Source: Clostridiales bacterium
GTDB lineage: Bacteria > Bacillota > Clostridia > Oscillospirales > Oscillospiraceae
Assembly: GCA_022781505.1 (NCBI GenBank)
Contig: JALETK010000093.1
Span: forward strand, 1-48,683
Direction: 5' to 3'
Length of the DNA: 48,683 bases
Positions 5,934 to 30,660 of this stretch are shown here, one piece after another (the first letter of the stretch is position 1; each line of letters begins with the position of its first letter). The notes below the pieces were generated by a model. That model was not told the origin of the DNA and made no database searches. It saw only the letters and a program-made list of their open reading frames with translations. The position numbers were made by a program, and so were the translations under genes.

Positions 5934-6010
5934 CGTTCACCCTCCCCACCTCCAATATATTGCTCCGGGGGACGGATGGTGCGGAAATGGAATCATCCCT
6001 TCGGAATTCT

Positions 6011-6039: not shown

Positions 6040-6065
6040 GTAAAGAAAAACGAAAGGAGCCGCCC

Positions 6066-7241: not shown

Positions 7242-7269
7242 AACCCAATTGACAGAGAAAGCTCCTTAG

Positions 7270-7400: not shown

Positions 7401-7403
7401 TGC

Positions 7404-7886: not shown

Positions 7887-7992
7887 TTCCTCGCACTCCT
7901 TTGAAGGAATTATTTCAGAACATGTTGGGCAAATTCGGTTTTTCTGGTATATTACGAATTCCCATTGGTTTTCTGCGCTATCTCGCATTTTC

Positions 7993-10686: not shown

Positions 10687-10698
10687 ATTCCTGCCTCC

Positions 10699-13356: not shown

Positions 13357-13368
13357 ACCCGGTTTTCC

Positions 13369-14010: not shown

Positions 14011-14012
14011 TT

Positions 14013-15509: not shown

Positions 15510-16546
15510 GGCAATACCTCCCCAAGGGCCTCCAAAAGCCGGTCATTTTCCTCCGGAAGACGAACCGCCGTCCGGTAGAAGTCCGGCCCCAGCCCTCTGT
15601 AATTGGCACAGGAGCGGATGAGAATTCCACGCTCCACCAGAAGCGCCTTTAAATCGGTTATGTTTTCCGCCCGGAACAGCAGGTAGTTGGCCTCCCCGGG
15701 CCAGACCTCCAGGCCCAGAGACCGCAGCCCCGCCTGAAGCCTGGGCCGCTCCACCCGGAGAAGGGCTCTTGCCCGCTCCGGCCAGGCGGCGCAGCCGCAG
15801 GCCGCGATTCCCGCCGCCTGGGCCACACAGGACACGCTCCAGGCCTGGCCGGAATCCCGGCAGGCAGAGAGCAGCGCCCCATCCGAGGACAAGCCGTAGC
15901 CCAGCCGCAGCCCCGGGATGGCGAAGCTCTTGGTAAAGGCCCGGAGGAGAAACAGGTGGGGATTGTCCCCCAGGGCTCCCCCCAAACCGGCACCGTCGGT
16001 GAGGGGCAGGAAGCATTCGTCCACCACCAGCCGGGTGCCGGTCTTGCCGCACCGGGCCAGAATCCGGCGGAGCAGTGTATCATCTGCGCACAGCCCCGTG
16101 GGATTGTTGGGGCTGCAGAGAAAGAGCATGTCCAGCCCGGGCCGGATGGCCTCCAGAATATCCTCCTCCAGGACAAAGCCCCGGGAGGCACGGAGGAGCC
16201 AGTGCTCCACAGGACACCCAGCGGCCCGGAGGGCCTGCTCATACTCCGAGAAGGTGGGGGCCAGAACCATGGCCCTCCCGGGCCTTCGGGCCAGCACCAG
16301 CCGGAAAATCACGTCCGCCGCCCCGTTTCCGCAGAGAATCCAGGCCGGGCTCACCCCGTCCATGGCCCCGATGGCCTCCCGCAGGGCCCGGCATTCCGGG
16401 TCGGGGTAGTGGGCCGCGTCCCCCACCGCCGCCCGGGCCGCCCGGGCAACCGGCTCCGGCATTCCCAGGGGGTTCAGATTGGCGGAGAAATCCAAAAGGG
16501 GCCTTTTATAGTCATAAATATCCCCGCCATGGGCCGGGATTCCCAT
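15491..16546 (-). CDS. cobD: L-threonine-O-3-phosphate decarboxylase
   Basis: This 351-residue PLP enzyme makes (R)-1-amino-2-propanol O-2-phosphate, the linker used by CbiB. The aminotransferase I fold is shown by [20 protein letters not shown] and [15 protein letters not shown], in which the lysine binds PLP. The ATG at 16546 is preferred: it has GAGGTG six bases upstream, whereas the GTG three codons earlier lies on that ribosome site. No fused kinase or Cys-rich C-terminal domain is present. The gap from cbiB is 15 bases. Confidence 0.9.
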
Positions 16547-16561
16547 AGAAATCACCTCAAA

Positions 16562-17530
16562 TTACAGCAAAAACATCAGGCCCAGGGGCAGGACGCAGAA
16601 AATCGCCCAGGCCAGGGCCGCCGTGAGCAGCATGATCCGGTTGGCCCGGGGGATGTCCTCCGGGGTGACGGGGCGGCAGGGGTCTCCGATGGTGGGCTTT
16701 TCCACCAGCTTTCCAAAATAATAGCTGGGCCCCGCCAGCTGCACCTGCAGGGCGCCCGCCATGGCCGCCTCGGTCTGGGCGGAGTTGGGAGACTTGTGGT
16801 TTCGCTTGTCCCGCCGCCAGATGCGGAAGGCGTCTGTGAGGCTGCCGCCTCCCAGGGCGGCTCCCAGGCACAGGAGAAGCCCCGCCAGCCGGGCGGGAAT
16901 ATAATTCAGCACATCGTCCAGCCGGGCTGCAACCCGGCCGAAGTACAGGTATTTGTCGTTTTTATAGCCCACCATGGAGTCCATGGTGTTCACCGCCTTG
17001 TAGGCAAGGCCCAGAACACCGCCCCCCAGGGCCATGTACAACAGGGGGGCGATCACCCCGTCGGAGGCGTTCTCCGCCACGGTCTCCACGGCGGCCTTGG
17101 CAACGCCGGTCTCATCCAGGGCCTCCGTATCCCGGCCCACGATCATGGACACAGCCCTTCGGGCCTCCGGCAGGGTGCCGGTTTTAAGGGCCTTAAAGAC
17201 CTTCATGCTCTCGTCCCGAAGGGCCCGGGCGGCCAGAAGCTGGTAGCACAGAACCGTCTCCACTCCCAGCCGGAGCCAGGGAGACACCAGGTGACACAGA
17301 TAGAGCACACCGGCTCCCACACCGGCGGAGATGCTCACCACCAGCACCGTCAGCACCGCGCCCCCCGCCAGCTCGCCCCCTCTGGTCTTGGGGAACATCC
17401 GCCGGAGCAGCCGCTCCAGGCCGGAGATGAGAGCACCCATGGCCCGAACGGGATGGGGAGCCCAGTGGGGGTCTCCCAGGAGCAAATCCAACAAAAAGCC
17501 CAGAGCCAGGGCCGTCAAATGCCATTTCAT
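16562..17530 (-). CDS. cbiB: Adenosylcobinamide-phosphate synthase
   Basis: This 322-residue membrane enzyme joins adenosylcobyric acid to aminopropanol phosphate. GFLLDLLLGDPHWAPHPVRAM at the start is the family signature. Further membrane segments and ASDGVIAPLLYMALGG and the NHKSPNSAQTEAAMAGAL run follow. The ATG at 17530 overlaps the cbiA stop by four bases and gives the standard length; the longer open frame upstream is a shadow of cbiA. It is the only strongly hydrophobic protein in the biosynthetic operon. Confidence 0.94.
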   Translation of the reverse strand: MKWHLTALALGFLLDLLLGDPHWAPHPVRAMGALISGLERLLRRMFPKTRGGELAGGAVLTVLVVSISAGVGAGVLYLCHLVSPWLRLGVETVLCYQLLAARALRDESMKVFKALKTGTLPEARRAVSMIVGRDTEALDETGVAKAAVETVAENASDGVIAPLLYMALGGGVLGLAYKAVNTMDSMVGYKNDKYLYFGRVAARLDDVLNYIPARLAGLLLCLGAALGGGSLTDAFRIWRRDKRNHKSPNSAQTEAAMAGALQVQLAGPSYYFGKLVEKPTIGDPCRPVTPEDIPRANRIMLLTAALAWAIFCVLPLGLMFLL

Positions 17531-18891
17531 GGGTTCTGCCTCCTTTGATATGCCCCGCACCGCTCCACAAACCGCCGGGCCGCCTGAGGCGCGCCCGCCA
17601 GGTGCATGTGGGGAAAGCCCGCGTACAGGCTGGGGGTGTGATAGCCGCAGTCCCAATGTCTTTGGGACAGGGGCTTTTCCCCCAGGAAGGCTGCCCCGGG
17701 GTTTTCGCTCTTCCAATAGTGGAACTCGTGGGCGGGAATGGCCTCCCCCGCCGGGCACAGAAGCCCAGCTTCCCGGGCGGTGAGCTTCACATAGCCAAAC
17801 TGCTGCAGCCGCTGTGTTCTGAGGGCCCTGCCGGGAAACACCCCCGCCATGGAGCGCAGCACACCGCAATTGTCCTCCAAAGCCTCGTGGAGGTACATAA
17901 ATCCTCCGCACTCGGCGATGGTGGGAAGCCCTGCGGAAATGGCCTCCCGAACCGACTGCCGCATTCCGGCGTTGGCCTCCAGCGCCTCCCCATGGAGCTC
18001 CGGGTAGCCGCCGCCCAGGTAGAGCCCTCCGATGTCCTCCGGGAGTCCAGGGTCTTCCAAGGGGGAGAAGGGAACCAGCTCCGCCCCCAGCCGCTCCAGC
18101 AGCCCCAGGGCGTCCTCATAATAAAAGCAAAAGGCCCTGTCCCGGGCCAGGGCAATCCGGGGCTTCCCGGCCACCGGCACAGGCAGAGGCTCCTCCGGCG
18201 CCGGCAGCTGCGGGGCGGAGGCCGCCAGGGTCAGAAGGCCGTCTATGTCCAGGCTGTCCTCCGCCGCCCGGGCCAGGGCGGCCAGCTTCTCCCGGAAGTT
18301 CTCCACCTCCGGGGCCGTCACCAGTCCCAGGTGGCGGCTGTCCAGGGCCGCCTCGGGGCAGATTGGGAGAAAGCCGTATACCCGCAGCCCCGTCTCCGCC
18401 TCTATGGCCCCCTTCAGCCGGGGGTAGACCATGGGGGAAACCCGGTTCAGGATCACCCCCTGAATGTTGGAATCCGGCCGAAAATCCCGGAAGCCCGACG
18501 CCAGGGCGGCGGCGGACAGAGCGCTGCCCCGGGCGTCCAGAATCAGCACCGCCGGGGTTTGGGTTTTTCGGGCCAGGTCGTAGGCGCTGGCCCGGCTGCT
18601 CATGGCGATGCCGTCATAATAACCCATGGCCCCCTCCAGGATGGACACCCGGCCCCGGCCGTTTTCCCGGAGGGAGGCCAGAACCCCCGCCTCCCCCATG
18701 AGGAACAAATCCAGATTCCGGGAGGGGGTTCCCATGACCTCCCTGTGAAACATGGGGTCGATGTAGTCCGGGCCGCTTTTGAAGGCCACAGTGGGAACCC
18801 CCCGGTTCACCAGAGCCTGCAGAAGGGCGCAGGTGACCGTGGTCTTCCCGCAGCCGCTGGCAGGGGCGCAGAGCAAAAGTCTTCCTCTCAT
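17527..18891 (-). CDS. cbiA: Cobyrinic acid a,c-diamide synthase
   Basis: This 454-residue amidotransferase uses glutamine and ATP to amidate the a and c side chains. CAPASGCGKTTVTCALL is the nucleotide loop, and FKSGPDYIDPMFH follows, as in CbiA/CobB. The glutaminase cysteine is in IAECGGFMYLHEAL (about residue 327). The ATG at 18891 overlaps the cbiET stop (ATGA) and begins the conserved sequence, so the nine-codon upstream extension is rejected. Confidence 0.95.
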   Translation of the reverse strand: MRGRLLLCAPASGCGKTTVTCALLQALVNRGVPTVAFKSGPDYIDPMFHREVMGTPSRNLDLFLMGEAGVLASLRENGRGRVSILEGAMGYYDGIAMSSRASAYDLARKTQTPAVLILDARGSALSAAALASGFRDFRPDSNIQGVILNRVSPMVYPRLKGAIEAETGLRVYGFLPICPEAALDSRHLGLVTAPEVENFREKLAALARAAEDSLDIDGLLTLAASAPQLPAPEEPLPVPVAGKPRIALARDRAFCFYYEDALGLLERLGAELVPFSPLEDPGLPEDIGGLYLGGGYPELHGEALEANAGMRQSVREAISAGLPTIAECGGFMYLHEALEDNCGVLRSMAGVFPGRALRTQRLQQFGYVKLTAREAGLLCPAGEAIPAHEFHYWKSENPGAAFLGEKPLSQRHWDCGYHTPSLYAGFPHMHLAGAPQAARRFVERCGAYQRRQNP

Positions 18892-20081
18892 CCCCGGCCC
18901 TCCCCGGAGACAATCCACACGGGATTCAGAGGCTCCGGCATGTGGTAGGCCCCCACCTGCCTGGTGCGGGTGACGGACACCTGCACCGCCTGGGCGGCAA
19001 TGCCCAAAGCCTCAAAGCACCCCAGGGCCTGGCCAATGGTCTCCAGAGTCACCGCAGTGGCCACCACCCGCACCCGGGGATTTTTCTCCAAAGCAATTCT
19101 CAAAATTTCCTCCATGCTCCCGGCGGTGCCCCCCAGGAACACCCGGTCGGGAGCCGGAAGCCCCACAAGGGCCTCCGGGGCCAGCCCCTCCACAATGGTC
19201 AGGTTGGGAATCCGGAATTTCTCCCGGTTCTCCTCCAGAAGGGCCACCGCCTCGGGCTTTCGCTCCACGGCGAAGACCTTCCCCCGGCAGGCTGCGAAGG
19301 CGCACTCTATGGACACGGATCCGGTGCCCGCCCCCACGTCCCACACCGTGTCCTCCGGGCGAAGCCGCAGCTTGCTCACGGCGAGGCATCGGATCTCCTC
19401 CTTGGTCATGGGAACCTTTCCCCGGAGGAACTCCCCGTCCTCCAGGAAGGGGGCGGCATAGGGCCGCTCCAGGGGGTGGGGATTGTGCACCAGCACCGAG
19501 GCCAGGCTGTCAAAGGACTCCTCCGCCAGGGCCCGGGCGGCGCCCCGGACAATACGCTCCTCCGGGTAGCTCAGCCGCTGGCCCACAATGACCTCCGCCT
19601 CCCCCAGTCCCCTTTGGGTCAGCTCCCGGCATAAGTCCTCCGCCCGGTAGCTTCCCCCTGTGAGGACAAAGCTCCATGGGTGGCTCTGAATCTCCCCCAC
19701 GGCGTTGTGGGCCCTGCCGTGGGCGGAGACAAGGCGCACATCCTGCCAGGGAAGAAGACACTTGGCGCACAGATACTGGACGCTGCTGACCCCGGGAATG
19801 GTCACCACCTCATGCTTGGCAAGAAGCGGATAGAGCTTCTTCGCCCCGGAGTAAAAGCCCACATCCCCGGAAAAGAGCACCGCAGCGGGAGAGACCTCCA
19901 GGGTGTCAATGGCCTCGGCCAGCTTCTCCGGGGCGATGGCCGGAATGCACCGCTTCTGAGGCCAGCCTTCCAGAAGCCGGGGGGCTCCCAGAAGGGCCTG
20001 GCTCTCGGCGATGGCGTTTCGTGCCCCGATGGTCATGGTGTCCGGATTTCCCAGACCCACGCCGATGATATAAACCTTCAT
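18888..20081 (-). CDS. cbiET: Cobalt-precorrin-7 C5-methyltransferase / C15-methyltransferase (decarboxylating) fusion
   Basis: This 397-residue fusion corresponds to aerobic CobL. Residues 1-200 are CbiE, a tetrapyrrole methylase (IIGVGLGNPDTMTIGARNAI). Residues about 205-397 are CbiT, a class I SAM methyltransferase with VWDVGAGTGSVSIECAF. Together they methylate C5 and C15 and remove the acetate carboxyl of ring C. CbiE and CbiT are separate in many organisms; here they are one chain. It has four-base overlaps on both sides (cbiJ and cbiA). Confidence 0.95.
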   Translation of the reverse strand: MKVYIIGVGLGNPDTMTIGARNAIAESQALLGAPRLLEGWPQKRCIPAIAPEKLAEAIDTLEVSPAAVLFSGDVGFYSGAKKLYPLLAKHEVVTIPGVSSVQYLCAKCLLPWQDVRLVSAHGRAHNAVGEIQSHPWSFVLTGGSYRAEDLCRELTQRGLGEAEVIVGQRLSYPEERIVRGAARALAEESFDSLASVLVHNPHPLERPYAAPFLEDGEFLRGKVPMTKEEIRCLAVSKLRLRPEDTVWDVGAGTGSVSIECAFAACRGKVFAVERKPEAVALLEENREKFRIPNLTIVEGLAPEALVGLPAPDRVFLGGTAGSMEEILRIALEKNPRVRVVATAVTLETIGQALGCFEALGIAAQAVQVSVTRTRQVGAYHMPEPLNPVWIVSGEGRG

Positions 20082-20815
20082 TCCTCCGCCTCCCAGCGCT
20101 TCAGCTGTGCTTTGACCTCCTCCAGGCTGAGGCCGGACTCGTGGACGGGTCTTCCGATGACCACAAGTCTGCAGCCCGCCTCCTTGGCGGCGGCCACCTT
20201 CTCCCAGAAGCCCCCGGCGGCGCCGGTGGCCTTGGTCACAAGGGTTTCAATGTGACATTGGCGCAGCAGCGCCAGGTTCATTTCCTTGGTAAAGGGCCCC
20301 TGCATACAGATAATCTGCCTGGCGGGATACCCCAGCTCCAGGCACCGGCCAAGGGAGGCCAGACTGGGAAGCACCCGGGGCCAGCACCGCTCCCGAAGAC
20401 CCGCGAAGGCATCTAAGTCCTTGCTCCCGGTGGTGAGCAGCACATTTCCGGGGAGGGAGGCGAGAAGCTCCGCCTCCTGGGCGGGGCTGTCCGCCGGGAG
20501 CCAGTCCCCGTCCACGTCCCCGTCCCGCACCAGCCGCAGCCGGGGCAGACCCGCGGCGGCACTGGCCGCCGCGATGGTCTCTGTGACCACATTGGCATAG
20601 GGGTGGGTGGCGTCCACCACATGGGTGAAGCCCTCTCTCATCAGGGCCTCCATGTGGGGCGCTTCCAGCCGCCCCACGTGGGCGGGGACACCCTCAGGCA
20701 GCAGCTCTCCGCCGTATTCACTTGCCACGCAGGTGAGGGCGTCTATCCCCTCTCCCCGCATCCAAAACGCCAGCTCCCGCCCCTCGGCGGTGCCGCCAAA
20801 CAGTAAAACACGCAT
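20078..20815 (-). CDS. cbiJ: Cobalt-precorrin-6A reductase
   Basis: This 245-residue NAD(P)H-dependent reductase acts on the C18-C19 double bond of the macrocycle. The N-terminal LLFGGTAEGRELA is the CbiJ/CobK nucleotide-binding start. VDATHPYANVVTETIA and LLTTGSKDLDAF are typical internal motifs. Length is standard. A 17-base gap follows cbiH, and the stop overlaps the cbiET start. Confidence 0.94.
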   Translation of the reverse strand: MRVLLFGGTAEGRELAFWMRGEGIDALTCVASEYGGELLPEGVPAHVGRLEAPHMEALMREGFTHVVDATHPYANVVTETIAAASAAAGLPRLRLVRDGDVDGDWLPADSPAQEAELLASLPGNVLLTTGSKDLDAFAGLRERCWPRVLPSLASLGRCLELGYPARQIICMQGPFTKEMNLALLRQCHIETLVTKATGAAGGFWEKVAAAKEAGCRLVVIGRPVHESGLSLEEVKAQLKRWEAEE

Positions 20816-20832
20816 GGGTTCCCTTTCCTTTT

Positions 20833-21567
20833 CTACGGCCGCTGCAAGTACCCTCTGGGGGTCACCATTTTGCCGTCCAGAAGGACGGTCTGCTCATTTC
20901 CAATAAATACGGTGGTGAACATGTCCACATCCTCCCTGTCCCGGAGCTCTCCCAGGGTCAGGGTCACCGCCTCCTCTCCGGCCCGCCCGATGTTCCGGAC
21001 GAAGCCGCAGACCGTGGTCTCAGGCTTGTAGCGAAGGATGATGTCACAGGCCCGGCGGAGATAGTCCGGGCGGTTGTGGCTCCGGGGGTTGTAGAGGCAC
21101 AGAACAAAATCCGCCTGGGCGGCACAGGCCAGCCGCTTCTCAATCTTCTCCCAGGGGGTCATGAGATCCGACAGGGAGATCACCGCAAAGTCATGGGTGA
21201 GGGGCGCCCCCAGCACCGCCGCTCCCCCGCAGGCCGCCGTAATGCCCGGCACCACCTCAATATCCATGGGGGGATACTCCCGGGCCAGCTCATAGATGAG
21301 CCCCGCCATGCCGTAAACCCCCGAGTCTCCGGAGCAAACCACGGCCACATTCTTCCCCTTGGCCGCCTCCTCCAGAGCCAGGCGGCAGCGGTCTACCTCC
21401 CTGCGCATTCCTGTAGAGACCATCTCTTTGTCCGGAAATTGGTTCCGAATCAGGGCGATATAGGCGGTATAGCCCACAACCAGCTCCGCCGCTTCAATGG
21501 CCTGACGGGCCCGGCCGGTGAGATCCTCCCCCGCCCCGGGCCCCAGGCCCACAACCGTCAATTTCAT
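20833..21567 (-). CDS. cbiH: Cobalt-precorrin-3 C17-methyltransferase
   Basis: This 244-residue SAM methyltransferase catalyses the ring-contraction methylation. TVVGLGPGAGEDLTGRA begins the fold, and VAVVCSGDSGVYGMAGLIYE is the CbiH/CobJ form of the second motif. LYNPRSHNRPDYLRRA is also characteristic. No extra C-terminal Fe-S or CobE-like domain is present. The gap from cbiG (116 bases) is the longest in the operon and holds a palindromic repeat. Confidence 0.94.
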   Translation of the reverse strand: MKLTVVGLGPGAGEDLTGRARQAIEAAELVVGYTAYIALIRNQFPDKEMVSTGMRREVDRCRLALEEAAKGKNVAVVCSGDSGVYGMAGLIYELAREYPPMDIEVVPGITAACGGAAVLGAPLTHDFAVISLSDLMTPWEKIEKRLACAAQADFVLCLYNPRSHNRPDYLRRACDIILRYKPETTVCGFVRNIGRAGEEAVTLTLGELRDREDVDMFTTVFIGNEQTVLLDGKMVTPRGYLQRP

Positions 21568-21597
21568 AGGAAACTCCTTTTTATATAATCATTCAGT

Positions 21598-21663
21598 CCG
21601 TAGGGAACGGTCTTGACCGTTCCGAATGCTCCCGGGCGGAACGGTCAAGGCCGTTCCCCTACA
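21598..21663. repeat. Palindromic GTAGGG...CCCTAC element inside the cobalamin operon
   Basis: GTAGGGAACGG at 21600 and CCGTTCCCCTAC ending at 21662 are near-perfect inverted arms. A second nested inversion (GGTCTTGACC and GGTCAAGGCC types) lets the whole 63 bases fold as one hairpin with a small CCCGGG-containing loop. The ends match the GTAGGGG/CCCCTAC elements at 7993-8333, and the core resembles 46531-46554. It sits between cbiH and cbiG with no coding potential and could act as an attenuator or RNA-processing site. Confidence 0.85.
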
Positions 21664-21683
21664 AGCCCCGGAGCGGGATGCCT

Positions 21684-22688
21684 TTACAAATAAATCGTGG
21701 TTTTCTTTCTGGCCACGGCCACGGTGACTCCGTTTCCCGCCTGCTTGGGGAGTACCAGATCTCCCCCGGTGAGGACAGCCGCCCGCTCGCAGACGTTGTC
21801 CACGCCGGTGACCTTCCGCACCAGATCCGAGTGGGTAAACTCCCCCGGCAGGGCCTCCAGGGCCTGGGCGGAATAGGTGCGCAGGGGCAACTTCCGCGCC
21901 CGGCAGAATTCCAGAAGCCCCGGCTCGTCCTTCTTAAGGTCAATGCTGGCGGTGCAGCCCACCGCCCGGGGGTCCAGGCCCCCTTTGCCCAGGGCTTCCT
22001 CCACGGCGGCCTCCAGATCCCCGGCGGATTTCCCCCGGCGGCAGCCCAGGCCCAGAATGAGGGTTCCGGGAATGAGCCGCAGCACCCCGGGCTCCCGGTC
22101 TTCCCGGTCGGTGACCCGGATGGTCAACCGGCGGGGGCCCCAGGTCAGCCCCTTTGGAAGGGCCCCTTCCGTGGGAAAGTCGCTGACAAAGCCCACGGTC
22201 TCCCCCTCCAAAATGGCGGCGGAGACCTCCTTGGCAAGGACTCTGTCTCCAATGGCCAGATTCCGCTCCCTGGCCCATACATCCACGGCGAACAGACCGT
22301 TCACATCCGTGGCGGTGGTGACCACCGCCTGGCCTCCCGTGAGGGCGGCGGCCTGTCTTGCCAGGGCGTTGGCCCCGCCCACATGGCCGGAGAGGAGGGC
22401 TATGGCCCAGCTTCCGCCCTCGTCCAGGGCAATGACGGCGGGGTCCGTGAACTTGTCCCGCAAATGGGGGGCAATGGCCCGGACGGCAATGCCGCAGGCC
22501 CCTACAAACACCAGAGCCTCCCGGCTGCCCCAGGCCTCCGCCGTCCAGGCCTCCAGGCTGTCATAAGCCCGCTCCCCCAGCTCCTCCGCCAGCCTGGGAG
22601 GGACACAGAGGGGCGCGCCCCAGGCCTCCGCAAGACGATGCCCCAAAGCGGCGCCCCGGCGGGTGAAGGCGATGACGGCGCAGTTCAT
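21684..22688 (-). CDS. cbiG: Cobalt-precorrin-5A hydrolase
   Basis: This 334-residue enzyme opens the delta-lactone of cobalt-precorrin-5A with loss of acetaldehyde, a step found only in the anaerobic pathway. The family motif is SGHVGGANALARQAAALTGG (residues about 107-126), followed by TTATDVNGLFAVD. The C-terminal CbiG domain has LGLGCRRGKSAGDLE and the STKK-like STK-free ending of the class. It overlaps cbiF by four bases. Confidence 0.93.
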   Translation of the reverse strand: MNCAVIAFTRRGAALGHRLAEAWGAPLCVPPRLAEELGERAYDSLEAWTAEAWGSREALVFVGACGIAVRAIAPHLRDKFTDPAVIALDEGGSWAIALLSGHVGGANALARQAAALTGGQAVVTTATDVNGLFAVDVWARERNLAIGDRVLAKEVSAAILEGETVGFVSDFPTEGALPKGLTWGPRRLTIRVTDREDREPGVLRLIPGTLILGLGCRRGKSAGDLEAAVEEALGKGGLDPRAVGCTASIDLKKDEPGLLEFCRARKLPLRTYSAQALEALPGEFTHSDLVRKVTGVDNVCERAAVLTGGDLVLPKQAGNGVTVAVARKKTTIYL

Positions 22689-23446
22689 TCCCGGCTCCCC
22701 TTCCGGTAGCCGTGGGTGAATTCCGGGTCGTAGAGGCAGCTCCGCTCATAGGCCGTGCCCAGGAAGCCGCCGATGGTAATGAGGGCGGTTTTGGTGATGT
22801 GGTTCTCCCTGGCGGTCTTGGCCAGGGTGCCCACGGTGCAGCGGAATACCTTTTCATCCGGCCAGGTGGCCTTGTACACAATGGCCGCCGGGGTGTCGGG
22901 GGTATAGGCCCCTCCCGCCAGCAGCTCCTCCTGAGCCTGCTCCAAAAGCCCCGTGGAGAGGAACAGCACCATGGTGCAGCCGTGGCTGGCCATGAGGCGC
23001 AGCCGCTCCCCCTCGGGTACCGGCGTTCTTCCGGCCATGCGGGTGATGATCACGGACTGGGACACCCCGGGCAGGGTGTACTCCGCGTTCAGGGCCGCCG
23101 CGGCGCCGCAGAAGGAGGAGACCCCCGGTGTGTCGTCATAGGCAAGGCCCAGCTCGTCCAGCCGGTCCATCTGCTCCCGGATGGCCCCAAAGAGGCAGGG
23201 GTCTCCCGTGTGGAGCCGGACGGTGGACTTCCCGGCGGCCTCGTTCTCAGCCATCACGCCGATCACCTGCTCCAGGGTCATACCCGCGCTGTCATAGACG
23301 GCGCAGTTCTCTTTCTTATATTGCAGCACCTCCGGGTTTACCAGGCTCCCGGCGTAGATGATGCAGTCCGCCTGGCTCAGGAGCCTGGCGCCCCGCACCG
23401 TAATGAGATCGGCTCCCCCGGAGCCGGCCCCCACAAAATGAATCAT
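22685..23446 (-). CDS. cbiF: Cobalt-precorrin-4 C11-methyltransferase
   Basis: This 253-residue tetrapyrrole methylase has FVGAGSGGADLITVRGARLL and the CbiF/CobM-specific YAGSLVNPEVL run. VRLHTGDPCLFGAIREQMDRL is the second substrate and SAM motif. It methylates C11, before CbiG acts. It begins 12 bases after cbiD and ends in an ATGA overlap with cbiG, so the two consecutive enzymes are coupled. Confidence 0.95.
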   Translation of the reverse strand: MIHFVGAGSGGADLITVRGARLLSQADCIIYAGSLVNPEVLQYKKENCAVYDSAGMTLEQVIGVMAENEAAGKSTVRLHTGDPCLFGAIREQMDRLDELGLAYDDTPGVSSFCGAAAALNAEYTLPGVSQSVIITRMAGRTPVPEGERLRLMASHGCTMVLFLSTGLLEQAQEELLAGGAYTPDTPAAIVYKATWPDEKVFRCTVGTLAKTARENHITKTALITIGGFLGTAYERSCLYDPEFTHGYRKGSRE

Positions 23447-23458: not shown

Positions 23459-24589
23459 CTATCTGTGAAGGGAAAGGAGCCGGTCTGCGCCGGGGGTCTT
23501 TCCCAAAATTCCGTATTGATTGGAGAAAAACAGGGCCCCAATCTCCATCTCCCCCGCCCGGTGGCGGAGATTCTCCTCCAGGGCCACGGCGATGGACGCG
23601 AGAACCGGTTCGTGAAGCTCTGCCTCCCGGAGCGCCGCCACGGCGGCGTCGGTGGTGGGGCTGTCAAACACCTTTTGCACCAGGGCCCGGCTCCCGCCCG
23701 CCATGGCGGTGTGGGCGGCCAGGGTCTCCCGGCGGCCGTCGGCAGTCTTGGAGTGGGTGTTCATAGCGCCGCCGGCCACCTTCACCAGCTTTCCCAGGTG
23801 CCCCACCAGAAGGAAGCTGTGAAAGCCCAGCCCCGCCGCGTGGTCAATAGCCGCTCCCACATAGTTGCTGCACAGGGCCCACTTGTTAAGGCGCAGCCCC
23901 AGCACCTCCCGGGAGAAGTCCTCCCCGTAATTTCCCGGGGTCACCAAAAGATCCCGAACCCCCCGGGCATAGAGGCTGTCCTGCTCCAGGTACAAAGACT
24001 GAATCAGCGCCTCCTCGCTCATGGGCCGGACGATGCCGCTGGTTCCCAGGATGGAGATGCCCCCCTGGATGCCCAGCCGGGGGTTGAAGGTCTTGCGGGC
24101 CAGGGCCTCCCCGCCGGGCACGGAGATGATGGCCGACAGGCCGCAGAGGGCCCCATGGCGGGCCAGAGCCTCCTCCAGCTGGCGGCGGATCATCTGCCGG
24201 GGGACGTCGTTGATGGCAGCCGCCCCCACAGGCTGGTTTAACCCCGGAAGAGTCACACGGCCCACTCCCTCGCCCCCGTCAATCACAATTCCCGGGGTCT
24301 CCAGGCGGCGCACCCGGGCGCACACCAGAATGCCGTCGGTCTGATCCGGGTCGTCCCCGCCGTCCTTCCGGACGCCGCAGAAGGCCCAGTCCGGCCCGGC
24401 CTCCCGGGCCTCCGGCTCCGCCTCCACCGGGATGCCGGCGGGGGTCAGAATCCGGAGGGTGTCCGGCCAAACCCCGGACAAAAGCCGCTCCGCAGCCCCA
24501 CCGGCTGCGGCAGCGGCACAGGTGCCCGTGGTGTATCCACAACGGAGCTTTTCCTTTCCCACGGGAATATAGTGCGAGAGCTTACCCAT
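23459..24589 (-). CDS. cbiD: Cobalt-precorrin-5B C1-methyltransferase
   Basis: This 376-residue enzyme methylates C1 in the anaerobic pathway. LRCGYTTGTCAAAAAGGAAE near the N-terminus is the CbiD signature, and ISVPGGEALARKTFNPRLG and GTSGIVRPMSEEAL are conserved. The ATG at 24589 is chosen for length and position; it lies inside the last codons of the Cys-rich gene (eight-base overlap). An ATG ten codons further upstream is possible but adds unconserved residues. CbiD is a marker for oxygen-independent corrin synthesis. Confidence 0.93.
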   Translation of the reverse strand: MGKLSHYIPVGKEKLRCGYTTGTCAAAAAGGAAERLLSGVWPDTLRILTPAGIPVEAEPEAREAGPDWAFCGVRKDGGDDPDQTDGILVCARVRRLETPGIVIDGGEGVGRVTLPGLNQPVGAAAINDVPRQMIRRQLEEALARHGALCGLSAIISVPGGEALARKTFNPRLGIQGGISILGTSGIVRPMSEEALIQSLYLEQDSLYARGVRDLLVTPGNYGEDFSREVLGLRLNKWALCSNYVGAAIDHAAGLGFHSFLLVGHLGKLVKVAGGAMNTHSKTADGRRETLAAHTAMAGGSRALVQKVFDSPTTDAAVAALREAELHEPVLASIAVALEENLRHRAGEMEIGALFFSNQYGILGKTPGADRLLSLHR

Positions 24590-24860
24590 TTTCGTCCCCC
24601 GGCTCCCGGCGTCTGGCAAGCTCTATCACCTGCTGGAGCTGCTCCAGGATTTTTTCATAGTTCTCCCGGCGATGGGGCCGGAGGCAGTTTGTGCAGTTTT
24701 TGATTCCCTTGTCCGTGTAGGTAAAGCAGCCCCCGCACCGGTCCCCCAGGGCATACAGGGGGCAGTAGCAGAACAGGCAGCTGAAGGTCTCCTTGTCCGC
24801 ACCGGGGTGGCAGGGAAAATACTCACACTCCCGGTTCTGAAAAAAGTCATAATGAGCCAT
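24582..24860 (-). CDS. Cysteine-rich small domain protein, first gene of the cobalamin operon
   Basis: This 92-residue protein has nine cysteines arranged as a likely Fe-S or zinc site: C-X4-C, C-X2-C-X-C, C-X2-C, then C-X2-C (NRECEYFPCHP, CLFCYCPLY, CGGCF, CTNCLRPHR). Proteins with this Cys-rich small domain are often found beside, or fused to, cobalamin genes; their reaction is not established. The ATG at 24860 has AAGGAGGG six bases upstream and lies 16-17 bases after the expected transcription start. An electron-transfer or metal-delivery role is an inference. Confidence 0.85.
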   Translation of the reverse strand: MAHYDFFQNRECEYFPCHPGADKETFSCLFCYCPLYALGDRCGGCFTYTDKGIKNCTNCLRPHRRENYEKILEQLQQVIELARRREPGDENG

Positions 24861-24971: not shown

Positions 24972-26096
24972 TCATTCGCATGGTTCCGGATTCAGGGCAG
25001 ATGCCCGCAGCTTTCCGGACTGCTTTGCCAGCTCCAGAAGGCGGCGGTTTTGTTCATTGGCGGGGCCGAAGGTGTCCAGCGGGCAGAGAACCTCCCGGCA
25101 GCCCTTCATCACCTCCGCCGCCTCAGCCACAGCCTTCTCCCCCACGGGGGCAAAGGCCGGAACCGAAATCACCCGGGCGGCCAGGGCCTGGGCCACGGGG
25201 AAATCCAGGTCGTTTTCCGGCAGCACCCCTGCGGCAAAGGGGATTCCCTGCCGCTGGAGCCTCCGGTACACCGGGATGCCCCTTCCCCCGCCGCCGATGA
25301 CAAACACCTCCGGCTCCCCCGGAACCCGCTCCAGCTCCAGGCAGCCGAAATCGGCGTTGTAGCTCCCCCGGGTGGTTCCGTAGAGCTCCATAATATATTG
25401 GGCGGTAAAAATCTCCTCAGGAGGGCCGCAGCGGTCCACGGCGTTGTTGTGGATGCACACCACATAGTCCGACACCTTCTGGGCCAGATCCAGCTCATGG
25501 AGGGACATGACCACCGCCAGCTGCCGCTGCCGCACCATGTCCTTCAGAATGCCCAGGAGCTCCAGCTTATGCCGGATGTCCAGGACGGAGGTGGGCTCGT
25601 CCAGGACGATCACCTCCGGCTCCTGGCACAGGGCTCTGGCCAGGAGAATCCGCTGCCGCTGGCCGTCGCTGATGGCAGAGAAGTCCCGGTCCGCCAGGGC
25701 CTCCCCGTGGACCAGTGCCAGAGACTCCCGGACGATTCGCCGGTCCTCCGCCGACAAAATCCCCAGGCGGCCCGTATAGGGATAGCGCCCCGTGGCCACC
25801 ACGTCCTCGCAGGTCATAAGCTCCGGGTGAATCCGCTCGGTCATGAGCACGGACAGGCACCTTGCCACCTCGGAATCCTTCATACCGGCCATGGCCCGTC
25901 CGTCCAGGTACACGGTGCCTCCCACGAGAGACAGCTGCTTGATGATGCTTTTCAGAATGGTGGACTTTCCGGCCCCGTTGGGGCCGATGAGGGTCATAAT
26001 CTCTCCTTTGTGAATGTGGAGGTTGATGTCTTCAATCAGGGCCTTGCCTCCGTAGCCCACGGACATGTGGTCCGTATACACATAGGCGTCTTTCAT
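24972..26096 (-). CDS. FecE/BtuD-type ABC transporter ATPase with an extra C-terminal domain
   Basis: This 374-residue ATPase energises the importer of the two preceding genes. Walker A is LIGPNGAGKST (residues 37-47), the signature is ISDGQRQR (a variant of LSGGQ), Walker B is VIVLDEPTS, and the H-loop is SLHEL. A standard FecE-type subunit would end near residue 255. Here about 115 further residues start with VFVIGGGGRGIPVYRRLQRQ, a Rossmann-like glycine-rich beginning, and run through GVLPENDLDFPVAQALA. Similar long ATPases occur with B12-type importers, but the role of the extension is not known. The start overlaps the permease (ATGA). Confidence 0.9.
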   Translation of the reverse strand: MKDAYVYTDHMSVGYGGKALIEDINLHIHKGEIMTLIGPNGAGKSTILKSIIKQLSLVGGTVYLDGRAMAGMKDSEVARCLSVLMTERIHPELMTCEDVVATGRYPYTGRLGILSAEDRRIVRESLALVHGEALADRDFSAISDGQRQRILLARALCQEPEVIVLDEPTSVLDIRHKLELLGILKDMVRQRQLAVVMSLHELDLAQKVSDYVVCIHNNAVDRCGPPEEIFTAQYIMELYGTTRGSYNADFGCLELERVPGEPEVFVIGGGGRGIPVYRRLQRQGIPFAAGVLPENDLDFPVAQALAARVISVPAFAPVGEKAVAEAAEVMKGCREVLCPLDTFGPANEQNRRLLELAKQSGKLRASALNPEPCE

Positions 26097-27133
26097 GACA
26101 GATTCCCTCCGGAGGCTCCCTTGGCCCGGCGGGAGACCATCATGTAAATCACCACCGGCGCGCCAAACACCGCCGTCACAGAGCTGATGCTCAGCTCCGT
26201 GGGCGCAAAAACGGTTCTCGCCACCAGGTCGCAAAACAGGCAGAACACCCCGCCCCCCAGAAAGCAGGCGGGCAGGATGACAATGGGCTTTGCCGTGCGG
26301 AACAGGCTCTTCATCAGGTGGGGCACCGCAATGCCCACAAAGGAGATGGGCCCCGCAAAGGCCGTGACGCAGGCGGACAGGACGCTGGACAGGAGAATCA
26401 GGGCCACCCGGAAGGCCTTGATGTTGACACCCATGTTCTGGGCGTAGACCTCACCCATCTGATAGGCCCCGATGGGCTTGGACAGGAGGAAGGCCAGCGC
26501 CACCGTCACCCCCACCACGGCCCCCATCACCGCCACATTGTCCCAGGACATGCCGGAGAAGCTGCCCAGGGACCAGTTGTGCAGGTTCACAATGTTGGAG
26601 TCCTCGGCGAAGGTCACCACAAAGTCCGTGACGGCGGAGCAGATATACCCGATCATGACACCGCAGATCACCAGGATGGACATCTTCCGCACCCGCCGGG
26701 AGATCAGAAGCACAAAGCCCATGGAGATGAGGGACCCCACAAAGGCCGCCAGAATCAGCGCCAGAGACCCGGACACCATCCCCCGGCTGAGGAGGAAAAT
26801 CATGGTGAGGGACACGGTGAGCTTGGCCCCGGAGGAGATGCCCAGAACATAGGGCCCCGCAATGGGATTGGCGAAAAAGGTCTGGAGTAAAAAGCCGGAG
26901 ACGGACAGAGCGCCGCCCAGAATCAGGGCCGCCAAAATCCGGGGCAGGCGGATGCCCCACACAATGCGGTAGTTGGTGTCCCCCTCCCCCAGGCAGACGC
27001 CCCGGAGGATTCGGAAAATCTCCCCCGGGGACAGGTGTACGCTTCCCGCGTTGATATTCCAGACCAGCAAAAGCACCAGCAGAGCCCCCAGCAGCCCGAA
27101 GGCCATGCCGTATCTGGCAGAGGTTTTTTTCAT
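26093..27133 (-). CDS. FecCD-family ABC transporter permease (siderophore/heme/B12 class)
   Basis: This 346-residue membrane protein has about ten hydrophobic segments. It carries the family block IRLPRILAALILGGALSVSG followed by FFANPIAGPYVLGISSGA near residues 65-105. The cytoplasmic coupling loop is GVNIKAFRV, and GPISFVGIAVPHLMKSLF lies in the C-terminal part. FecCD permeases work as homodimers and import Fe-siderophores, heme or cobalamin. It lies 13 bases after the binding-protein gene and overlaps the ATPase gene. The upstream B12 riboswitch favours a corrinoid or cobalt-related substrate. Confidence 0.93.
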   Translation of the reverse strand: MKKTSARYGMAFGLLGALLVLLLVWNINAGSVHLSPGEIFRILRGVCLGEGDTNYRIVWGIRLPRILAALILGGALSVSGFLLQTFFANPIAGPYVLGISSGAKLTVSLTMIFLLSRGMVSGSLALILAAFVGSLISMGFVLLISRRVRKMSILVICGVMIGYICSAVTDFVVTFAEDSNIVNLHNWSLGSFSGMSWDNVAVMGAVVGVTVALAFLLSKPIGAYQMGEVYAQNMGVNIKAFRVALILLSSVLSACVTAFAGPISFVGIAVPHLMKSLFRTAKPIVILPACFLGGGVFCLFCDLVARTVFAPTELSISSVTAVFGAPVVIYMMVSRRAKGASGGNLS

Positions 27134-27146: not shown

Positions 27147-28292
27147 TCATTTCAGCCGGTGTAAATAGGTGAGGCTGAGGCTCTCCGGGTCCTCCGCCCG
27201 GAAGATGGCGCTCATATCCTGAATCAGACTGCCAAGGCCCAGGCTCTCCTGAAAGAGGTTCTTCCCGGTGCACCAGACGTTTCCCTCCTGCACGGCCCTG
27301 AAGTCCCCCAGCAGGCTGCTTTTCCCCAGAAGCTCCTCCAGGGTTTGGAGCTCTCCGTCGATGGTGCTGTTATAGATCAGCACGTCCGCGTCCCGGGCAG
27401 CCTCATAAAAGGCCTCCATCTGCATGTTCATGGTGGAGGTGGCGGCGTCATCGGAGGGAATGCCGGACAGGGCGTAGACGCCTCCGGCCAGGTCGATGGA
27501 CTTTGCGATGTAATCCCCGGGCTTGCGCACGTTTACCGCGCCATTGGAGGTGATATAGAAGAAGGCCACAGTCTTTCCCGTGTTCTCCTGCTCCAGAATG
27601 GGGGTGAGCGCCTCCAGCTGCTGCCGGAAATAGGCCTCCGCCGCATCCTCCTTCCCCAGAAGGACGCCATAGAGGCGAATCCACTCCATCCGCCCCAGAG
27701 GGTGGCTCTCGTAGCTGGAGCGCTCCACCAGCACCGGAATGCCGAACCGCTCCAGCTGCTCCTTGACCTCCGGGGTGTGATAGATCATGGTGGACTCCAC
27801 CGCCAGATCGCAGCCCCGGTCCAGAATCCGCTCATAGTCCGGAGCGCTGTACTTCCCGGCATAGGAAATTTTCCCTGCCTCCATGGCCTCCCTTGCCTCC
27901 GGGATGTACCACCCGTCCGCGTCTGTGCCGGAGAGGCTGATGGAATCCAGGGCGTCCAGCTCCCGGAACAGATCCATGGCGGAGGTGGCCACCAGATAGA
28001 TGCTCTGCAGGGGCTGCCGCAGCACCGTGACCCCCTCCGGGATACCGGTGGGAGCTTCTGCGCCCTCGGGAACCACCAGATAGGTGTCCGAGTCTCCGAT
28101 GGTGACCATCCGGTAGCCTCCGGAATAGTTCTCCACGGAAAACTGCTCCGCGTAGGACAGCTCCATGGTTCCCTCGGAGGTCATGGATGCCCAGGTCACG
28201 GCGCCTCCGGCCTGGGTGGCCGCATCCCCGGCGCAGCCCCCCAGACAGAGGGCCGCCAGCAGCAGCGCCAGAAAAAACCATCTCCGCTTCAT
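27147..28292 (-). CDS. ABC transporter substrate-binding lipoprotein, FepB/BtuF class
   Basis: This 381-residue surface lipoprotein has a signal peptide with lipobox CLGGC (Cys20). The two-lobed class III binding fold is suggested by RMVTIGDSDTYLVVP, by SIYLVATSAMDLFRELDALD and by a long linker helix. The LVVPEG-type start differs from classic BtuF, so the ligand may not be cobalamin itself; heme or another tetrapyrrole is possible. The start overlaps the NEAT-like gene by four bases, and the FecCD permease follows 13 bases later. Confidence 0.88.
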   Translation of the reverse strand: MKRRWFFLALLLAALCLGGCAGDAATQAGGAVTWASMTSEGTMELSYAEQFSVENYSGGYRMVTIGDSDTYLVVPEGAEAPTGIPEGVTVLRQPLQSIYLVATSAMDLFRELDALDSISLSGTDADGWYIPEAREAMEAGKISYAGKYSAPDYERILDRGCDLAVESTMIYHTPEVKEQLERFGIPVLVERSSYESHPLGRMEWIRLYGVLLGKEDAAEAYFRQQLEALTPILEQENTGKTVAFFYITSNGAVNVRKPGDYIAKSIDLAGGVYALSGIPSDDAATSTMNMQMEAFYEAARDADVLIYNSTIDGELQTLEELLGKSSLLGDFRAVQEGNVWCTGKNLFQESLGLGSLIQDMSAIFRAEDPESLSLTYLHRLK

Positions 28293-29176
28293 TCCGCTTT
28301 TACAATGGTGGCGGAATCGAAGTACAGGGTGTACTCGATTTCGTGGGGGGTACTCATGGCGGTGGTGTCCGCCAGCACGGGAACCTTCCAGTCAAAGGCC
28401 GCCACGGGAATTTCAAAGGTGGCGTTCCCCTCCGTATTCACGGGGTCGAACTTCTGGTCATTGACCTTCATATAATCATAGTTGGAGCTGCTCCAGACCA
28501 GGGTGGCGTAAGCCTGGCCCCCCTCCACCCGGAGCTTGGCGGGAGATTCCACGGAAGCCTTGCCGGAGCCTCCCTCCAGACGAACCTCCACGGTGTAGCT
28601 GCCGTCCTCCAGGCCCAGGCTCTGGGCCGTGGCAAAGGCGCCGTCCTGAAATGCCTCCATGGGCAGGCTGTCCGCCCGGAACACCAGGGTGCGGTCGTAC
28701 CACAGCTCCTTCTTCTTGCTGTAGGCGGCGCAGGAAATCCCCGCGTCCAGGGCCTCCACGGGCACGGTGAAGCTGTGGGTTCCGTCGGCGGCCTCCTCAT
28801 AGGGGATGTAGGCCTCCTCCCCGGCCTCCGCCGCCGCCTGGGCGGTGCCCATGTACACATGAAGATAGCCGGTGCCGCCCATGTGCATGACGGCGGTCAT
28901 CTCCCCGTTCTCCACCGTCAGCTCACACTGGGTGATGCTGAACATGGAGGAGCTGGAGTCCACGGTGACAGAGTAGGTGCCGTCCTTCAGGGAGCTGCCG
29001 TAGATGGGCGTCATCCACGCCTGCACCACGTCCTCCACCGGGGCCGTGTCTGCGGCAGACGCCACGTTCTGCTCCGGCTCCGTGGTGGGAGCCGTCTCAC
29101 CGGCGCCACAGCCAGCGGTCAGCAGCATGATGGCGGCCAGGGCCAGGAGCATTCCTTTTTTTAAATGATTCATCAT
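28289..29176 (-). CDS. Lipoprotein with two NEAT-like domains
   Basis: This 295-residue protein has a lipobox (LLTAGC, Cys near residue 24). After a Thr/Pro/Glu-rich linker there are two similar beta-rich domains. The first begins DGTYSVTVDSSSSMF (about residue 65) and the second begins DGSYTVEVRLEGGSGKASVE (about residue 180). Both have the 'DG.Y.V...L...S......P..L.V..G..YA...' layout of NEAT domains, which bind heme in Gram-positive surface systems. The usual Tyr-X3-Tyr heme motif is not obvious. The ATG at 29176 is chosen for AGGAGGG six bases upstream. A second ATG follows at once. Ligand is an inference. Confidence 0.7.
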   Translation of the reverse strand: MMNHLKKGMLLALAAIMLLTAGCGAGETAPTTEPEQNVASAADTAPVEDVVQAWMTPIYGSSLKDGTYSVTVDSSSSMFSITQCELTVENGEMTAVMHMGGTGYLHVYMGTAQAAAEAGEEAYIPYEEAADGTHSFTVPVEALDAGISCAAYSKKKELWYDRTLVFRADSLPMEAFQDGAFATAQSLGLEDGSYTVEVRLEGGSGKASVESPAKLRVEGGQAYATLVWSSSNYDYMKVNDQKFDPVNTEGNATFEIPVAAFDWKVPVLADTTAMSTPHEIEYTLYFDSATIVKAE

Positions 29177-29196
29177 AAAATTCCCTCCTGCACAGG

Positions 29197-29228
29197 GGGC
29201 CGGCCGAAAGCTCCCTTCCGGCCGGCCC
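29197..29228. other. Strong intergenic hairpin in the importer operon
   Basis: GGGCCGGCCG (29197-29206) and CGGCCGGCCC (29219-29228) form a perfect ten-base stem with a 12-base loop, between the exported CbiK gene and the NEAT-like gene. There is no T-tract on the minus strand. It is more likely an RNA-stability or processing element that sets the relative expression of the first gene than a terminator. Confidence 0.7.
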
Positions 29229-29250
29229 GAAAATGACAAATTACATTCAA

Positions 29251-30246
29251 TTACTTGTTGAGACTGTCCACAGCCGCCTGAGCGTGCTCCACCAGGAGAT
29301 CCTGGATGGCCTCCAGCTCACCCAGGCCCCGGACCAGGCACTCCACCTCATAACCGGCGTCCGCGAAAATGGTCTTCCAGGAGTCCTCGTCCCCTGCCAT
29401 GTCGTTGTTGGCATGATCACCGGCCACGATCATGAGGGGCTGAAGCACAACCCGCTCGTAGCTCCCCGCCTGGACCGCCGCCAGCACATCCTCCACCGTG
29501 GGAGCGGCCTCCACCGTGCCGATGAAGTAGTTCTCATACCCCAGATCCTTCAGCACCTGCTGCATTTTGGCGTACACGCCGTTGGAGGCGGCCTCGGTGC
29601 CGTGGCCCATGAAGCAGATGGCGGTCTTTCCGTCGTCATAGGCGACGGTGGCCTCCACAATGGCCTTGGCCACAACCTGGAAGTCCTCATCGGAGGTGAG
29701 CAGAGGCTCTCCAATGACCACGGCCTCAAAGGCATCGGAATACTGGGCAACCTCGTTCACCAGGTCGTTGTACTCCAGGCCGTTCATCAGATGGGTGGGC
29801 TGCACCACCAGGGTCTTGACCCCGTTGGCAACCGCCCGGTCCAGGGCCTCGCCCACGTTGTCAATCACCTCGCCGTCCCGGCTCTTCACATGGTCGATGA
29901 TGATCTGGCTGGTAAAGCCCCGGCGCACGGCATATTCGGGGAAAGCGGTCTCCATGGCCGCCTCAATGGCGCCGATGGTCAGGCGGCGGTTGTCATTGTA
30001 GCTGGTGCCGAAGCTCACAACCAGAAGCTCCTTTTCGCCGATGCCGTCCTGGTTCCGGGGATTGTCCAGGGAGGCGTCGCCGGTGTCGTAGTTCTCCTCC
30101 TCGTCCACAGGCTCGCCGGAGGGCTCCGTGGAGGCCGTGGTTCCGGCCGTGGTGTCCTGGGGCTCCTGGCTGCTGCCGCAGCCGGCAAACAGCGCCACAG
30201 CCAAAGCTGCCACCAGCAGCAGGGTTAACAGTTTCTTGATGTTCAT
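29251..30246 (-). CDS. cbiK: CbiK-like anaerobic cobaltochelatase exported as a lipoprotein
   Basis: This 331-residue protein has a signal peptide with lipobox LFAGC (Cys23), then a Thr/Ser/Glu-rich linker to about residue 70. A full class II chelatase domain follows (LLVVSFGTSYNDNRRLTIGA). Both metal-site histidines are kept: CFMGHGTEAASN and IVAGDHANNDMAGD. The chelatase therefore sits outside the membrane. Known exported CbiK (CbiKP of Desulfovibrio) is periplasmic and binds heme. It is the first gene after the cobalamin riboswitch and heads the importer operon. Possible roles are outer-surface metal insertion, tetrapyrrole capture or metal delivery. Confidence 0.88.
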   Translation of the reverse strand: MNIKKLLTLLLVAALAVALFAGCGSSQEPQDTTAGTTASTEPSGEPVDEEENYDTGDASLDNPRNQDGIGEKELLVVSFGTSYNDNRRLTIGAIEAAMETAFPEYAVRRGFTSQIIIDHVKSRDGEVIDNVGEALDRAVANGVKTLVVQPTHLMNGLEYNDLVNEVAQYSDAFEAVVIGEPLLTSDEDFQVVAKAIVEATVAYDDGKTAICFMGHGTEAASNGVYAKMQQVLKDLGYENYFIGTVEAAPTVEDVLAAVQAGSYERVVLQPLMIVAGDHANNDMAGDEDSWKTIFADAGYEVECLVRGLGELEAIQDLLVEHAQAAVDSLNK

Positions 30247-30325
30247 GTTTCAGTTCCTCCTTTTATTTTCCTGATGTATGGTTAATTTTATTACACCAGC
30301 GAAGCAAAGGTACAGGAACCTGGGG

Positions 30326-30359
30326 CGAAAAAACGTGGCCATCCATAGATGACCACGTT
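30326..30359 (-). terminator. Riboswitch expression-platform terminator
   Basis: On the minus strand, AACGTGGTCATC and GATGGCCACGTT form a 12-base stem (one U-G pair) with a TATG loop, followed at once by TTTTTTCG. It lies about 80 bases before the first start codon and is the likely B12-controlled stop. Confidence 0.92.
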
Positions 30360-30590
30360 CGGAATCGCCTGGCGAAACGGTACAATCAAGTCCTCGTGAT
30401 CCGGAGCATAGATGCTATGTTCCCGTACCAGCAGACGGCAGGTTTCCTGACTCATAAGTCCACACGCACCGCAGGTCTTCCCAACAATTGTCAGTGACTG
30501 CCTCCTTCGGCATCAAACGGCGCGCTCGTTATATACAGTGACGAGATCGTACAGGCCTTTCACCTGTTTCCCTTTTACTCTTCCTTCTCC
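30326..30590 (-). promoter_or_regulatory. Cobalamin riboswitch
   Basis: Read on the minus strand, the leader has the conserved order of a B12 riboswitch. GGGAAACAGGTGAAAGGCCT (30572-30553) is followed by CGTCACTGTAT, then a GCCGAAGGAGGCAGTCACTG hairpin region, TTGGGAAG, and the B12 box GAGTCAGGAAACCTGCC (ending near 30438). An expression platform with a terminator follows. It controls the exported CbiK, NEAT-like and FecBCD genes, which should be switched off when cobalamin is plentiful. No second copy is seen ahead of the biosynthetic operon. Confidence 0.95.
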
Positions 30591-30631
30591 AAAAAAGAAA
30601 GAAGGCACCGGCTGCTTATTCAGTTGTCTTG

Positions 30632-30660
30632 ATTATATCACAGGCCCGGAGCAATTGCAA
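30632..30660 (-). promoter_or_regulatory. Promoter of the riboswitch/importer operon
   Basis: Minus strand TTGCAA (30660-30655), a 17-base spacer and TATAAT (30637-30632). Transcription would start near 30625, about 35 bases before the first conserved riboswitch block. It begins right after the M20 gene stop at 30674. Confidence 0.82.

Follow-up and report, generated by a model that had tools for sequence, protein, structure and literature searches.

In the available portions of the published accounts, several systems resemble parts of the locus described here. Shelton et al. designated 180 species, mostly Firmicutes, as tetrapyrrole precursor salvagers and found P. gingivalis to be without the steps to precorrin-2 (PMC6461909). 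P. gingivalis IhtB is a CbiK-homologous lipoprotein that goes with the importer parts IhtC-E and is not regulated by PgFur (PMC10913741). In Desulfovibrio, an extracytoplasmic CbiK has been described (PMC4063343), and a single B12 element covers cbiK-cbiL together with btuCDF, the passage at hand leaving unstated which cbiK is meant (PMC545781). Here, we analysed a window of 48,683 nucleotides (nt), the whole stretch of DNA under study (contig JALETK010000093.1 of the Clostridiales bacterium assembly GCA_022781505.1), in which a cobalamin riboswitch, a terminator-like hairpin and a cassette led by an exported CbiK open a 22-kb series of B12 genes on the minus strand. We consider it probable that this riboswitch-controlled cassette is a tetrapyrrole salvage system feeding vitamin B12 synthesis. 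More tentatively, and with a little less than even confidence, we propose that a large group of Firmicutes of the gut and rumen has its true cobaltochelatase in the exported CbiK, which would metallate sirohydrochlorin at the surface and pass cobalt-sirohydrochlorin along a NEAT-FecB-BtuCD chain into a corrin pathway without its own beginning. The cassette, its control region and the two genes that follow it comprise:

30632..30660, minus strand: sigma-70-like promoter, TTGCAA-17-TATAAT with TG before the second hexamer (10/12 matches; consensus match only)
30420..30627, minus strand: cobalamin riboswitch RF00174 (cmscan 90.3 bits, full length 1-189, above the gathering score)
30331..30360, minus strand: terminator-like hairpin of 13 pairs, then Ts (RNA fold -27.9 kcal/mol, z -6.0)
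29251..30246, minus strand: exported lipoprotein CbiK, class II chelatase domain at about residues 72-326 (PF06180, 263.5 bits)
28289..29176, minus strand: two-domain NEAT-like lipoprotein
27147..28292, minus strand: FecB-like class III substrate-binding lipoprotein (PF01497, 98 bits)
26093..27133, minus strand: FecCD/BtuC-type permease (PF01032, 263 bits)
24972..26096, minus strand: ATP-binding cassette (ABC) ATPase, BtuD-like, with a C-terminal extension (PF00005)
24582..24860, minus strand: cysteine-rich small domain protein, zf-like (PF04071, 102 bits)
23459..24589, minus strand: CbiD (PF01888, TIGR00312)

The riboswitch with its terminator, the lipobox-bearing CbiK that keeps both metal-site histidines, the two-domain NEAT-like lipoprotein and the FecB/C/E-type importer genes had all been read from the letters in an earlier note on this DNA, as had a second, cytoplasmic CbiK further along the run, and each was recovered here by profile searches, RNA folding or structure prediction. 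The hairpin at 30331..30360 was not among the matches of a promoter/terminator consensus scan.

The combination of an exported CbiK with an importer is already known from Iht, which, like the cassette, joins a CbiK-type lipoprotein to a binding protein, a permease and an ATPase. Iht differs in having a TonB-dependent receptor in place of the NEAT protein and in being discussed, in the text available, as haem/iron uptake (PMC10913741); no gene for such a receptor was among those identified at 8.2-30.2 kb of the window, and the Iht-linked structure 9b86 falls outside the exported clade of cassette CbiKs, on long branches. The periplasmic CbiK of Desulfovibrio vulgaris is likewise extracytoplasmic but occupies a separate tree branch, and a NEAT protein goes unmentioned in the accessible parts of PMC4063343 and PMC545781. 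The cassette genomes may resemble the salvagers of Shelton et al.: in 35 of 50, CbiD is kept while HemC and CobA, the early genes searched for, were not found. The window's own genome, with HemA, HemC and CobA-HemD, does not fit that group. The available text of that study names no uptake or metallation machinery for late precursors (PMC6461909). The earlier note had supposed that the combination might not be described; this stands for the NEAT relay, which, like a salvage role in Firmicutes, was not found in the open PMC literature, but not for CbiK plus importer, given Iht and, as far as the excerpt goes, the Desulfovibrio B12 element. Cytosolic CbiK (1qgo) shares the domain family and catalytic residues of the cassette CbiK, which is instead exported, anchored and linked to an importer. 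In Isd-type relays, NEAT-fold surface proteins pass haem to a binding protein and an ABC importer with a FecCD-type permease. The cassette would work in a similar manner but is under B12 rather than iron control, places a chelatase before the NEAT protein and gives no indication of haem as cargo.

The route that we propose begins at the cell surface, where CbiK would capture scavenged sirohydrochlorin and metallate it with cobalt on the outer side of the membrane. From there, the product would pass by way of the NEAT protein to the FecB-like binding protein and then, through the BtuCD-type importer, as cobalt-sirohydrochlorin to CbiL and the later corrin-ring enzymes. The class II chelatase step is usually placed in the cytosol, and CbiL is expected to act on cobalt-sirohydrochlorin. 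A pathway that starts at CbiL, in genomes where HemC, CobA, CbiX and a cytosolic CbiK were not found, must take a ring at about the sirohydrochlorin level from outside. From the B12 control, the vicinity of corrin genes, the status of the exported CbiK as the only class II chelatase and the occasional fusion of the importer to CbiD, we infer surface capture and metallation, relay and import. The cargo is likely to be sirohydrochlorin rather than its cobalt or iron complex or precorrin-2, and extracellular cobalt insertion, the order of the relay and import are likewise putative.

A scan of species genomes returned at least 592 stretches that code for relatives of the exported CbiK, cytosolic ones included, of which the best 80 loci were kept. 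Using six-frame whole-genome searches, we surveyed the genomes of 50 of these 80 named loci. CbiD was present in 45 and PF06180 in all 50, with a single PF06180 gene, the exported one, in 45. A separate CbiX was not found in the 50 genomes, every PF01903 match lying inside a CbiK protein. HemC was found in 12 genomes and CobA above its cut-off in 13 (the same 12 and one more). Both were not found in the remaining 37, 35 of which contain CbiD. Thus, 35 of the 50 genomes have CbiD but yielded neither HemC, CobA or a separate CbiX nor a second, cytosolic CbiK; in these, the exported CbiK has a predicted lipobox (30) or a hydrophobic N-terminus judged by eye (5). Isolates account for five of the 35 (R. 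flavefaciens FD-1, Y1, ND2009 and YL228, and Evtepia gabavorous KLE1738). In HemC-less isolates, cbi genes stand in long clusters, and CbiL scored above cut-off in all four of those tested. The HemC model recognised its gene in the genome of the window and in 11 of 14 controls. Where the earlier note left the choice between a tetrapyrrole and cobalt open, the survey points to a tetrapyrrole at about the sirohydrochlorin level, destined for a corrin pathway without its own beginning. CbiM was also tested as a discriminator and rejected: it was above cut-off in 12 of 50 genomes, strongly in 8, and rare in both the HemC-containing and the HemC-less groups. In the draft assembly of R. flavefaciens FD-1, CbiD is split over two frames (L152, 16266-17454).

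As a control, we classified 150 genomes of the window's family (Oscillospiraceae), 53 of which contain CbiD and 39 HemC. Among CbiD-containing genomes, exported CbiK was present in 16 of 20 without HemC versus 8 of 33 with it (p 1.4e-4), while cytosolic CbiK showed the opposite distribution (5 of 20 versus 26 of 33; p 1.7e-4), by Fisher tests that ignore kinship. Before classification, the many noise matches to signal peptides (about residues 1-60) in this search were dropped by hand. In G081, the exported entry consists of a C-terminal fragment at the edge of a contig; in G152, the second CbiK is truncated by a contig end and its signal region is not visible. One surveyed genome (L093, G175) seems to be present in the family set as well, as G138.

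The gene neighbourhood is conserved among the best 80 loci. Downstream on the same strand, NEAT was found in 78, FecB in 73, BtuC in 68 and BtuD in 65, and all four partners were present in 54 of the 59 loci having more than 5.5 kb of downstream sequence. The upstream sequence contains a B12-box pattern in 68 of 80 loci, or 66 of the 75 in which at least 700 nt were available. Of 10 loci scanned with Rfam, 8 have the riboswitch immediately before the exported CbiK, the two misses (L060 and L103) also being without the B12-box pattern. A lipobox was predicted in 72 of 80 loci and in 45 of the 50 surveyed genomes, the other 5 having a hydrophobic N-terminus by eye.

Gene fusions link the chain further. 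Among 121 loci, we identified nine single-frame CbiK-NEAT fusions (two with two CbiK domains), four CbiK-CbiK proteins without NEAT (one cut by a contig end), four NEAT-FecB fusions, four BtuD-CbiD fusions (L014, L061, L077 and L084), one BtuD-zf-CbiD fusion (L023) and, besides the latter, three BtuD-zf fusions; none involving the permease was seen. The fusions therefore connect, step by step, the chelatase at the surface with an enzyme of the corrin ring. Calls were made by matches to the window's proteins, and seven fusion proteins were also run on Pfam, which scored both partners in three (L022 CbiK-NEAT, L014 BtuD-CbiD and L023 BtuD-zf-CbiD); in the other four, it scored SLH plus CbiK (L025 and L026), CbiK (L103) or FecB (L106) and left the NEAT parts unscored. 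Conservation, fusions and B12 control together give good support to the surface capture, metal handling and import of a tetrapyrrole that the earlier note had proposed; in place of its metal exchange, the survey points to cobalt insertion.

Further arrangements were seen in these loci. Exported proteins with tandem CbiK domains occur in L018, L022, L024, L033 and L037, and possibly in L020, which is cut by a contig end. The BtuD-CbiD fusions, with a zf-like domain in between in L023, suggest that the zf-like protein is at the cytosolic side of the importer. In L051 (440-2331), a signal-less CbiK adjoins a double NEAT protein that looks exported and has a membrane helix at its C-terminus; the same genome (G113) also encodes an exported CbiK.

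The exported CbiK of the window carries a predicted lipoprotein signal, MNIKKLLTLLLVAALAVALFAGC, and covers positions 1-261 of the 262 in the PF06180 profile, above the Pfam cut-off. It did not reach the cut-off of 400 bits for NF047852, the sirohydrochlorin cobaltochelatase equivalog (221 bits); the window's cytosolic CbiK is likewise below it (305.8 bits). By sequence, the exported CbiK is related to three solved structures, 9b86 (haem-binding protein FetB, E 3.6e-45), 1qgo (named cobalamin biosynthetic cobalt chelatase) and 2xvx (putative chelatase), which we take to be P. gingivalis IhtB, the cytosolic CbiK of Salmonella and the periplasmic CbiK of Desulfovibrio vulgaris, respectively. We checked catalytic residues in 157 domains from fetched loci, some genomes having been fetched twice: 116 were labelled exported, because a lipobox is predicted or because they match the exported copy of the window best (a label that takes in a few signal-less rows), and 41 cytosolic. 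The metal-site residues Glu89, His145 and His207 (1qgo numbering) are intact in all 116 exported-labelled domains. In a 155-row tree, a single branch with support 100 unites 108 exported rows, and the three remaining exported-labelled rows, all signal-less, are placed elsewhere. The references 9b86, 2xvx and 1qgo fall among the cytosolic rows, on long branches that make their placement unsure; this grouping suggests that export of CbiK has separate origins. An internal start yielding a cytosolic form of the exported protein was considered and found little support: counting ATG codons, with GTG and TTG excluded, an ATG with a ribosome-site-like sequence was present in 1 of 73 and any internal ATG in 5 of 73.

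The invariance of these residues bears on the possibility that the exported CbiK is a receptor only, which would bind a tetrapyrrole (sirohydrochlorin, siroheme or a corrinoid) but insert no metal, cytosolic metal handling being left to an unrecognised enzyme or to none. We consider this unlikely: Glu/His/His is conserved in 116 of 116 exported-labelled domains, and another class II chelatase was not found in 45 of 50 genomes. In its favour, the text available calls IhtB a putative haem-binding lipoprotein (PMC10913741) and 9b86 is named haem-binding FetB. In addition, 8 of the 12 HemC-containing cassette genomes are without a cytosolic class II chelatase and may have another chelatase, CobN and Met8-type enzymes having been outside the scope of the genome-wide searches.

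The window's NEAT-like protein narrowly missed the PF05031 gathering score (31.1 versus 32.8 bits); precomputed annotation records PF05031 in its near-identical relatives and in others. A sequence search of solved structures with this protein alone gave one match, at chance level, and a search with its alignment two weak matches to a NEAT chain. With sequence searches weak, its identity was settled by fold comparison: the second domain adopts the NEAT beta-sandwich in the predicted model, the nearest NEAT folds being haem-bound structures. The invariant residues of the NEAT protein were derived from 18 sequences. For the FecB-like protein, the same kind of search of solved structures found nothing; its model (pLDDT, the predicted local distance difference test, 88.8) has a siderophore/haem binding-protein fold. 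This model resembles binders of siderophore, haem, B12 and molybdate alike, and its cargo is therefore not told by the fold. The best NCBIfam matches of the permease (BtuC, 210 bits against a cut-off of 334) and of the ATPase (corrinoid ABC ATPase, 217 against 537) both fall short of the BtuFCD equivalog cut-offs.

These best names, together with the upstream B12 riboswitch, would fit a plain importer of corrinoids (B12 or cobinamide), with CbiK and NEAT as surface corrinoid receptors for BtuFCD. Such an importer would leave unexplained why corrin-ring genes without a beginning are retained. The cassette lies in or near corrin-ring clusters with an ATPase sometimes fused to CbiD, and among CbiD-containing genomes exported CbiK favours those without HemC. 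Both NCBIfam scores are moreover under their cut-offs, and the window's genome has a separate B12-riboswitch locus for an energy-coupling factor (ECF) transporter. We regard this reading as improbable.

Harvesting of iron from haem or siroheme by reverse chelation, the activity suggested for IhtB of P. gingivalis in the portion of the paper available, where it is thought to strip iron from haem (PMC10913741), would agree with the haem-binding name of the closest solved relative and with the haem-bound nearest NEAT folds. The B12 riboswitch, the position at the head of cobalamin genes and the BtuD-CbiD fusions speak against it, and we judge it very unlikely. Scavenging of cobalt ions, in which the exported CbiK would bind Co2+ and pass it to the FecBCD importer, is scarcely credible: B12 control, the scarcity of CbiM and the membership of the BtuF-like CbtJ in a cobalt ABC importer (PMC7689651, as far as the excerpt shows) would suit it, but it explains neither the missing HemC and CobA nor a NEAT fold in the chain, and CbiM is rare in HemC-containing members too.

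Several points weigh against salvage by an exported cobaltochelatase, besides the kinship ignored by the Fisher tests. The 50 surveyed genomes were chosen as best matches to the exported CbiK, many are metagenome-assembled genomes, and the genome-wide searches did not take in HemB, HemD, precorrin-2 dehydrogenase/Met8 or CobN. A cytosolic class II chelatase was also not found in 8 of the 12 surveyed genomes with HemC and CobA; the cytosolic enzyme has thus been lost in genomes that keep the early pathway as well. CbiD was not found in 5 of the 50 cassette genomes, which assembly gaps may explain in part, and two family genomes (G138 and G142) carry exported CbiK without CbiD. Among the 20 family genomes with CbiD and without HemC, 4 are without exported CbiK and 5 have a cytosolic CbiK. 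The closest solved relative of the exported CbiK bears a haem-binding name, and the fold matches of the NEAT and FecB proteins are mostly haem and siderophore binders. Finally, the window's own genome, with HemA, HemC, CobA-HemD and a cytosolic CbiK, has no need of salvage.

If the exported CbiK is indeed the cobaltochelatase of these bacteria, the metal-insertion step of B12 synthesis has been moved outside the cell, the labelling of P. gingivalis IhtB/FetB and other exported CbiKs as haem proteins needs revisiting, and B12 precursors at the sirohydrochlorin level would be a shared currency of gut and rumen communities. To the question of how the predicted salvagers of late precursors obtain a large metal-binding ring, the cassette offers a named and testable machine for uptake and metallation under B12 control.

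Beyond CbiD, the B12 run of the window continues as follows:

13369..23446, minus strand: CbiF, CbiG, CbiH, CbiJ, CbiET, CbiA, CbiB, CobD, CbiP and CbiC (NCBIfam/Pfam)
12562..13356, minus strand: cytosolic CbiK (PF06180, 287.6 bits; signal peptide not predicted)
11874..12569, minus strand: CbiL (TIGR01467, 214.7 bits)
8243..11877, minus strand: HemA, HemC and CobA-HemD, part of the organism's own tetrapyrrole route (TIGR01035, TIGR00212, TIGR01469, PF02602)

The name CbiF rests on a TP_methylase match and operon order. A genome search (assembly 96% complete) found two PF06180 genes, both within the window. In this organism, salvage through the cassette would supplement its own synthesis and would presumably be shut down when B12 is abundant.

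Three additional B12 riboswitches were identified in the window's genome. One, at 10068-10276 of contig C12 (L172), is followed at 11159-17759 by an ECF transporter with T, A and S components, the S component giving a riboflavin-type match; this locus also has DUF4430 and prenyltransferase/alpha-toroid matches, weak and under the Pfam cut-offs, and appears to us reminiscent of a transcobalamin-like corrinoid capture system. Another, at 2724-2916 of contig C29 (L173), lies upstream of a FecB-like gene (3466-4080) cut by the contig end. Because of these other B12-controlled ECF and FecB-like loci, the cassette is less likely to be the main corrinoid importer. The third, at 4024-4232 of contig C12, precedes a gene (4388-9577) for a 1,729-residue surface protein with SLH and cadherin-like domains.

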